In this document: positions 16,190 to 18,149 of the stretch, piece by piece
Position numbering within the stretch: position 1 is the stretch's first letter
How the letters are laid out: the number at the start of each line of letters is the position of its first letter
Source of the DNA: Progne subis subis
Lineage: Eukaryota > Chordata > Aves > Passeriformes > Hirundinidae
Length of the DNA stretch: 64,000 nt
Direction of reading: 5' to 3'
Assembly (NCBI GenBank): GCA_022316685.1
Contig: JAKJHU010000531.1
Span: 88,826 to 152,825, forward strand
Notes under the pieces: generated by a model
What the model saw: the letters and a program-made list of their open reading frames with translations, nothing else
Databases searched by the model: none
What the model was told of the DNA's origin: nothing
Position numbers and translations under genes: made by a program

Positions 16190-17639
16190 TTATTTTTGTT
16201 CACTGTATCTTTGTAGTTCTTGTCTAGCTAACTCTAAAGTTTCTAAATTTTCTTCTTCAGGTATTAGGTTATACTTAGTTCTAAGGAGCATAAGGTGTGC
16301 CGCTTCCAGCCGGCTTTTTACTATAGTAATCAGTTTATTAAATATACATGGTCCGAAGGTAAGCCCGAGCGCCAACAGAATTACTGGCCCTGCAATAGTA
16401 GAAAGCAGTGTGGTTAACCAAGGAGAGTGGTTGAACCAATTTTCATACCAATTCTGATGTGCTTCTCTCTCTCTTTTCCGCTGTTCTATCTGCTTTCTTA
16501 GTTCATTCATACGAACAGCATTTCTCTTTTAGTGCTACACAAAGGCCCCCTTGTTGTAAAAACAGCAGATCTAAACCCCTTCGATTTTGTAGTCATGGGT
16601 GTGATTGAAAATTTTTAGAGATAAACAAGGAGTAATTCCTATACTCTGGCAAACCTACTGAGTATTGGGAGCTGGGAGTAACCAATCTGCTTTTTGTTTT
16701 TGCTTTGGGTCTTTCACAGTGATGTTACACAAATGTTCTCTATTAGGGGGAACAGTACCCACACACTGTCCCTGTCCAGTTACCTGAGAGAGCGTTACTC
16801 CTTGAGTACTGGGTTTGGTCTTACACTCTCTGGGTCATGTGGGACTGGTTCTTTTTATTAGTATTAAGCTTCTGCTATCAGTTTTAGGTTGCCAATATCT
16901 TACTCCCCAGGTTCGTCCTATTACCCATCTAGGATCTTGGTGTTCCAGAATTAAGACTCTTAGAGATTTATAATTTCCTTTTTTCCATACGTTACCGTGT
17001 AGGGCATAACCGGGTGGGTCACACCCATGTGGTTCCCAGGTTACCTTAAGATATTTATCTTGTCTTGTAGGCATCCATCCCATCGCAATAGTTTCACACC
17101 CCCAATAAGCACAATAATATTTATTAGGTAAATTGCAATATCCCTGCCCTGGGTTTGAACTGGGACACCAATAGGTAGCTTTAGAATTCCACCCGAAGCG
17201 GCGTAGGTTGTCTGGTGTACAGTCTTGACCCATTAGCTCACAATTGGTCACATTAAAGAAAGGAGCTCCCACAGTAACATTGACTTTGAGAATTTTAGAG
17301 TTTTCCCATCGAGTTAGTGACCATTTAAAGGGCTGGTGTGGTAGAGTATCTACGGCATTAACCCCTCCTAAGTATAATATTAACAAAAGAAAAGTAATCT
17401 GCTGGGTCAAGTGGCGAGCATCATTGGGGGCGTAGGGATGGAAGCATATCTGAGGATTTTTCCATTTTATAGACTGCGACCTGTCCCCCTGCCCAGGCTC
17501 CTCGCTTCTATTCCCATTCTTGAGGCAATTCCCCGAATATTGTTTTGTTGTCCCACCCTGGGGGTTCCTTCCTCCACAACCTTTTATCCCTCTGCCTTGC
17601 TCGTCGACTCGGTTGCCTCGAGCCACGAGGAGTACCATC
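16190..17639 (-). pseudogene. ERV-C env remnant (gammaretroviral type)
   Basis: Remnant of the surface and transmembrane envelope glycoprotein. A first ATG at 17,639 precedes about 80 polar residues and a hydrophobic leader (TFLLLILYLGGVNA). Surface-subunit sequence with many cysteines and N-glycosylation sites follows, to an in-frame TGA at 16,837-16,835; the same frame goes on to a TAG near 16,660. A deletion then joins the surface C-terminus to the middle of the transmembrane subunit, where the C-x6-CC motif (near 16,545) is visible in another frame. The cleavage site, fusion peptide and first heptad repeat are missing. The last part (16,510-16,190) holds a HSPWLTTLLSTIAGP membrane span and a cytoplasmic tail. 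It cannot code for a working envelope. Confidence 0.85.
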
Positions 17640-18149
17640 TTCTCGGCAGCAGGGATATTCTTCAGGAGGTCCCCGGGGACGATTCTGTTGCCTCTTGACG
17701 TAGGAATCCCAGTTCTGATATTTAACCGGGGGTGTATCACACCGGATTCCCTTTAGGCGTGTGCGGCAGGTGCAGTCAACAATCTCAGCTATGAACAGGA
17801 TGGGTTCATTAGGGTGATAACAATAATATTTTGGTTCAATCCCTAATGCAAAAATCCTCCACCATTCTTCTGATTCTTCCACTAATCCCTCATGTTTAAC
17901 TTTATATTCTAGAATCCAATCAGTTATGTTCCATTGCAGTACCCAACAGGGGCTGCAAATTCCTCTAGGAGGGGTTCCTCGCCTACAATGACTCCACCAC
18001 CTGTCCCTGCAGATTTTACAAATATAACAAACAAAAGGATAACAATTGCACTCTGGGTCTCTACACCTTATCTTAACATCAGTGTTACAAATTAGTCTTT
18101 CTTCCGTGTAGTGTGGTTCTGGTGCATATTCTACACGGTGTCCATTCAT
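17508..18149 (-). CDS. ERV-C accessory ORF: Cys/His-rich, Arg-rich protein between pol and env
   Basis: A 213-codon open frame. Its ATG (18,149-18,147) overlaps the pol stop as TAATG, and its end overlaps the env leader in another frame. The N-terminal third has a dense Cys/His block: C-x4-C-x-CYPFV-x3-C-x2-C-x6-HC, then two more cysteines as C-x2-C. This looks like a zinc-binding module. The C-terminal part has PEEYPCCRED and then an arginine-rich stretch with RRAR, typical of nuclear-import or RNA-binding segments. No signal peptide or membrane span is seen. ERV-B keeps the same frame at the same place (24,966-25,412). Standard gammaretroviruses have no gene here. A role as a regulator is inference from layout only. 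It could instead be expressed with a leader exon by splicing. Confidence 0.7.
   Translation of the reverse strand: MNGHRVEYAPEPHYTEERLICNTDVKIRCRDPECNCYPFVCYICKICRDRWWSHCRRGTPPRGICSPCWVLQWNITDWILEYKVKHEGLVEESEEWWRIFALGIEPKYYCYHPNEPILFIAEIVDCTCRTRLKGIRCDTPPVKYQNWDSYVKRQQNRPRGPPEEYPCCREDGTPRGSRQPSRRARQRDKRLWRKEPPGWDNKTIFGELPQEWE

Follow-up and report, generated by a model that had tools for sequence, protein, structure and literature searches.

The window analysed here is a 64,000-nucleotide (64-kb) stretch of contig JAKJHU010000531.1 from the bird Progne subis subis, and on its minus strand it holds ERV-A, an endogenous retrovirus (ERV) that carries an additional gene between pol and env (Table 1). 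This accessory gene is read on the minus strand from 18149 to 17511 as a frame of 213 residues, with its stop at 17508-17510; a 213-codon frame at this place had been proposed in an earlier note on the same DNA, which gave no strand, and is real, the plus-strand reading of the interval containing six stops. The Cys/His motif then described is present (C29-x4-C34-x-C36-YPFV-C41-x2-C44-x2-C47-x6-H54-C55), as are a later C-x2-C (C65-x2-C68) and an arginine-rich C-terminal part with a basic stretch at residues 182-194. The reported overlap of the gene's ATG with the pol stop (TAATG) exists in this copy but is only a variant, the form TTAATGA occurring in six of 49 loci; the gene starts with ATGA in 47 of the 49, and in ERV-A the context of this ATG is poor (ttaATGa). 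The similar pattern seen previously in a second element of the window, ERV-B, at 24,966-25,412 belongs to a true homologue, although the homology extends past 25412 to about 25440-25500; the ERV-B protein is 33% identical to protein P0010 and 34% to P0001, the ERV-A frame.

Table 1. Features of ERV-A and of the ERV-B homologue, in window coordinates.
Feature	Position	Strand	Remarks
Accessory gene of ERV-A	17508..18149	-	213 codons + stop; ATG overlaps pol stop
Cys/His core, residues 29-68	17946..18065	-	C29 C34 C36 C41 C44 C47 H54 C55 C65 C68; 26-row conservation; predicted zinc-binding
CCREDG motif, residues 167-172	17634..17651	-	env ATG inside it, +1 frame
Basic tail RRARQRDKRLWRK, residues 182-194	17568..17606	-	low model confidence; absent from some relatives
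5' part of env	16835..17638	-	+1 frame to gene; ATG 17636-17638, 267 residues to stop at 16835 (this copy)
3' part of pol	18149..19924	-	RNase H, integrase with MLV-type C-terminal domain; Pfam
Candidate splice acceptor	18288..18289	-	first exon base 18288; 139 nt before gene's ATG; score 7.8
Candidate env splice acceptor inside gene	17788..17789	-	first exon base 17788; score 5.3, 89.8th percentile; 27/28 family-A loci
3' LTR of ERV-A	15698..16164	-	467 nt, 98.5% identical to 5' LTR
5' LTR of ERV-A	23576..24042	-	467 nt
Homologous gene in ERV-B	24966..25451	+	broken by two in-frame TAG; directly after pol tail 24724-24957

ERV-A is bounded by two long terminal repeats (LTRs) that differ by a Kimura two-parameter (K2P) distance of 0.015 over 467 nucleotides (nt) and are flanked on both outer sides by CAGG (15694-15697 and 24043-24046), a 4-bp target duplication. 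Its Pfam matches comprise Gag_p30 with a CCHC knuckle, protease, reverse transcriptase (RT), RNase H and an integrase with the C-terminal domain (MLVIN_C) typical of murine leukaemia virus (MLV). Compared with PDB sequences, the RT piece has ten best matches at E 2.4e-33 to 1.1e-26, the next coming only at 3e-10; we take these ten to be MLV-type RTs (one is named MMLV, Moloney MLV). By its MLV-type RT and integrase C-terminal domain, p30 capsid and 4-bp target duplication, ERV-A thus classifies on sequence features as a gammaretrovirus-like ERV, with the best match of the integrase core piece, prototype foamy virus (PFV) integrase, counting against this assignment. A primer-binding site, TGGTGCCGTGACTCGGAT, lies at 23555-23572 and is presumably of tRNA-His type.

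At least 152 matches to the gene (150 scored of 597 candidates, some loci giving more than one row) came from a scan of the host genome, which comprises 1.17 Gb in 2896 contigs. They form three groups: family A, to which ERV-A belongs, family A', which is decayed (about 45-56%), and the divergent family B (35-39%; 33-41% protein identity), represented here by ERV-B. A pol tail lies upstream of the accessory match in all 63 loci examined, and ends mostly within about 25 bases of it in families A and B; in A', where the beginning of the gene is decayed, the distance is for that reason larger. Loci that repeat other loci or the window (L001-L005, L007, L008) were left out of these 63 loci and of the 49 above, and the broken A' loci L035-L048 were left out of the 49-locus start count, the family-B substitution analysis and the splice-site count (the last keeping L046). 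The accessory gene is part of the virus, adjoining pol in the loci examined. Two family-A loci, L033 and L034, have pol tails at 100% identity and accessory matches of only 72% and 65%, probably owing to frame breaks.

Ratios of nonsynonymous to synonymous substitution rates (dN/dS) between many copies, which had been suggested as a check, reveal constraint in the gene's frame only. Among 21 family-B copies, 57-98% identical to each other in nucleotides, the part of the gene before env has a median dN/dS of 0.17, and all 182 usable pairs lie below 1 (28 of 210 pairs were left out for saturated or near-zero dS). Read in the two remaining frames, the same part has values of 1.02 and 1.24 and contains 206 and 208 stops, compared with 2 in the gene's frame; the pol tail in its own frame, used as a control, gives 0.09. 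Because this set was found through the gene itself, and consists of copies mostly with few stops, the analysis was repeated on 20 further family-B-like copies, which came next in an integrase search, were chosen regardless of the gene and were all examined. Nineteen of these 20 carry the gene, 18 directly after pol and one (L085) about 700 nt further on, and the median dN/dS is again 0.17, with all 167 usable pairs below 1 (4 of the 171 pairs were excluded) and values of 1.08 and 1.15 in the other frames; a stop falls in the tested part of seven of the 19, as expected for fossils, and some matches are partial. The ratio of nonsynonymous to synonymous differences per site (pN/pS) is 0.31 in the core, 0.35 in the helix and 0.27 in the middle of the gene, so that constraint is spread throughout. 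The accessory frame is a real gene kept by purifying selection and conserved as a protein across divergent ERV families.

The end of the gene is shared with env, which begins inside it at the CCREDG codons and overlaps it by 131 nt; the env ATG has a good context (gagaagATGg), and the ERV-A env has a weak match to TLV_coat (E 0.0049, below the Pfam cut-off). The earlier note had allowed that the frame might turn out to be a fixed part of an env leader, which would share the frame of env, but env has an ATG of its own and is read in a different frame, so that the accessory gene is not such a leader. From this overlap, and from the youth of family A, in which 25 of the 36 full-length copies listed at at least 92% identity are free of stops (youth alone could explain this), it might be argued that the frame is non-functional, or a by-product of the env overlap or of splice signals. 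Such an origin is, however, contradicted by constraint in the part without env overlap, found in the gene's frame only, and we consider it extremely unlikely. The ERV-A env also has an 80-residue leader before its hydrophobic stretch (17390-17638), partly encoded in the overlap, and the family-B env reaches the hydrophobic stretch far sooner.

Candidate splice sites suggest how the two overlapping genes might be expressed: the accessory gene perhaps from a singly spliced RNA whose acceptor lies before the gene's ATG, and env from a second RNA that would be spliced inside the accessory gene. For the former, the acceptor at 18288 ranks at the 96.5th percentile of AG sites on its strand and is kept in 27 of 28 family-A loci; for the latter, the first ATG after the candidate acceptor at 17788 is that of env. 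In family B, acceptors occur at offsets of +69 (17 of 19), +333 (8 of 19) and -34 (6 of 19). The donor proposed earlier (23379/23380) scores 5.4 (94.8th percentile), less than four of the five other GT sites listed. Gene models of the swallow genus Hirundo share sequence from about 17789 on, a boundary that may be a gene-predictor effect only.

Relatives of the protein were sought among 5.8 billion sequences by searches that depend on shared five-residue words, which returned 21, 3 and 25 matches, amounting to 33 different proteins. Five of these are Hirundo gene models matching the later part only, leaving 28 relatives, several of them truncated, and identities range from 29 to 96%. The named sources are birds only: the hawk Accipiter gentilis (P0015), Zosterops borbonicus (P0024) and Hirundo rustica (the five models); scans of IMG/VR found no relative of the accessory protein. 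The five Hirundo models were left out of all alignments, and P0011, P0019 and P0025 out of alignment A4. A tree of 28 rows (21 proteins, P0001 among them, and seven translated from the genome) splits with support of 100/100 into two deep sides, here called A and B. ERV members occur on both, and the A side comprises five sub-lineages, among them that of the hawk. That the gene was captured from a host and is carried as cargo has a precedent in CrocERV29, which, according to the available portion of its description, holds a KIT-ligand between pol and env (PMC4299795). We regard such a capture as quite improbable here, as no cellular relative was found among the proteins covered by the five-residue-word searches, in Pfam or in PDB, and both deep clades contain ERV members.

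Twelve Cys/His are kept in nearly all rows: C34, C47, C55 and C68 in 25 of the 25 rows with a letter there, C36, C44 and H54 in 24 of 25, C65 in 23 of 25, C29 in 22 of 23, C128 in 26 of 26, C137 in 25 of 26 and C167 in 24 of 24. C41 of the A side is replaced by His in four of the five B-side rows. The Cys/His positions are conserved between the two deep clades, and their number and spacing fit a zinc-binding protein. A structure model built from 26 sequences, also among the checks first suggested, has a mean pLDDT of 78.6 and a pTM of 0.70, with block means of 78-97 up to residue 160 (86-97 over the Cys/His core) and 35-52 beyond; residues of about 1-160 are predicted as one fold with the twelve conserved Cys/His, and the tail as disordered. 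We infer with good support that residues 1-160 fold compactly into a single unit stabilised by Cys/His metal sites, probably with two zinc ions, and it is this Cys-rich domain, predicted to be folded, that is conserved. The protein matches no Pfam family and no PDB sequence (best E 0.47 and 1.2), and a Foldseek search of solved and viral folds gave no match with E of 0.001 or less. A zinc-type Cys/His pattern might also belong to a virion or replication cofactor, for instance an additional zinc protein of nucleocapsid type that would be packaged along with the genome. The gag of ERV-A, however, already has a CCHC knuckle, the spacing in the accessory protein is not that of CCHC, and the protein is fused neither to Gag nor, because pol ends at the gene's ATG, to Pol, and a role of this kind seems improbable.

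The C-terminal tail is far more variable. Basic tails (RRARQR and similar, of [SG]RRxRQR type) are carried by most A-side rows and, on the B side, by P0026, P0033 and L053, and might suggest an RNA-binding or trans-acting regulator resembling lentiviral Tat or Rev, in which the Cys domain would contact host factors and the arginine-rich tail would bind viral RNA or direct nuclear entry. Such a regulator would also accord with the family-B overlap, which is more constrained in the accessory frame (pN/pS 0.47) than in that of env (0.94). Yet four of the 24 rows that keep the C-x-E-D motif, P0001 counted, end no more than ten residues after its Cys (P0016, P0028, P0029 and P0034, three of them forming one clade), a clearly basic tail is found in only two of the five B-side rows, and that of P0023 is acidic. 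The succession of a cysteine block and a basic block, which had been likened to lentiviral trans-activators, therefore describes P0001 but not the family, and is weak evidence because the basic tail is missing in some relatives. The tail is moreover modelled at low confidence, and the only scan for RNA elements made, against Rfam over 15600-26000, gave no match, although an export element need not be in Rfam. We consider a regulator of this type rather unlikely, though next in probability to the host-directed adaptor described below and ahead of a virion cofactor.

Taking these observations together, we read this as a genuine fourth gene, lying between pol and env, of a bird gammaretrovirus lineage, encoding a protein of about 180-220 residues, and hold the explanation given here to be reasonably probable as a whole. 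For its action the leading proposal, which has moderate support but is somewhat less probable than not, is that the protein would work in the infected cell as a zinc-stabilised adaptor binding a host protein. The bound protein would be removed or redirected, as by lentiviral Vif and from the same genome position, and the variable tail, overlapping env, would only modulate localisation or RNA contact in some lineages. This host-directed adaptor is ranked first because constraint spans a compact metal-stabilised protein rather than a short RNA-binding peptide, the spread of constraint (pN/pS 0.27-0.35) fitting a globular binding protein better than a single RNA-binding motif; action on a host factor may be the likeliest mechanism, a choice that we hold tentatively. 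Several points weigh against it. Family A, with a pN/pS of 0.64 against 0.74 and 0.50 in the other frames, is too young to give a verdict on selection by itself. Two other ATGs (18260 and 18252) lie between the 18288 acceptor and the gene's own ATG, a rival acceptor inside the gene at 18006 (score 5.6) is likewise kept in 27 of 28 family-A loci, and no family-B acceptor lies at the place of those of family A. The fold search made with the model yielded no match to Vif or to a solved protein, the likeness to Vif would be one of position, size and metal-site character only, and a low dN/dS is not typical of arms-race proteins. More speculative still is the possibility that some bird gammaretroviruses are complex retroviruses: a long-lived lineage, whose relatives occur in passerines and a hawk, would have at the vif position an undescribed family of accessory proteins, with a fold of its own, that counters or reroutes a bird host factor.

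Another gammaretrovirus-like element in the window bears on the origin of the gene; it is represented by pol pieces (26917-30199) and by a pol tail (36850-37050) sharing 47% identity with the ERV-A tail. Only 26 nt separate its pol stop (37066-37068) from an ATG at 37095, which leaves no room for the gene; the frame opened by this ATG is signal-peptide-like and broken at 37263, and we read it as putatively env-like. No relative of the accessory gene was found there, the only weak match nearby (37884, E 0.95) being at chance level. This agrees with the gene being lineage-specific, as first suggested, and the gene was therefore either gained by the A/B ancestor or lost by this other element. The two sets of pol pieces suggest one outer gammaretrovirus-like provirus in which the others are nested. 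An LTR pair at 7904-8583 and 39177-39856 (98.8%) encloses ERV-A, ERV-B and a further element; its assignment to ERV-B was dropped after the pol pieces were mapped, and it more likely belongs to another provirus enclosing the rest. A further provirus at 30191-36860 has LTRs at 98.2%, a 1042-residue pol frame (32922-36050) and, at 31713-31985, a repeat whose steps are mostly of 27 nt; it is apparently inserted into the outer pol. Shortly before the outer 3' LTR there is a 492-codon open frame (37662-39140) with no clear Pfam match, perhaps env-related by its place.

The accessible portions of the open literature (including PMC4272516, PMC9967133 and PMC8310711), a scope that excludes subscription papers, bioRxiv, Repbase and Dfam, yielded no description that we recognised as this gene. 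Retroviral accessory genes are known as a kind; what we rate as new is the protein family, found here in a group regarded as simple. That several bird lineages conserve such an additional gene indicates that accessory genes arose in gammaretroviruses too, and points to an as yet unnamed host factor or regulatory step in birds. As no named relative of the protein family was found, identifying its target could bring to light a novel mechanism of antiviral defence or RNA control, and the abundance of fossil copies allows the history of the gene to be read.

Gammaretroviruses are the textbook simple retroviruses. ERV-A resembles MLV and reticuloendotheliosis virus (REV) in its MLV-type RT, integrase C-terminal domain and p30 capsid, and to our knowledge simple gammaretroviruses such as these have no gene between pol and env. 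Lentiviral Vif, a small intracellular protein of about 190-230 residues with zinc held by Cys/His, starts at the end of pol and before env; the accessory gene shares this position and approximate size, and its protein the predicted Cys/His zinc sites and the proposed intracellular action. No sequence or fold match between the two was found, although homology can escape such a fold search, and the accessory protein has more Cys, a gammaretroviral background and, in birds, a target that would have to differ from mammalian APOBEC3, unlike that of Vif. Tat and Rev combine a Cys-rich block with a later arginine-rich block, as do many relatives of the accessory protein, which differs in its much larger folded domain, its one contiguous frame and the absence of the basic block from some relatives. 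The Rec/Rem-type env-leader proteins of betaretroviruses are similarly sited at the start of env and have a basic stretch, but are encoded in the env frame, whereas the accessory gene has another frame and its own ATG. Among other ERVs, HERV-T differs in that its extra frame, as far as the available part of the source describes it, lies 5' of gag (PMC5388530). The crocodilian CrocERV29, on the evidence of the portion of its description cited above, carries a captured KIT-ligand that resembles the accessory gene in its position and in being under purifying selection (PMC4299795), but is recognisable as a host gene, whereas the accessory gene has no known homologue.
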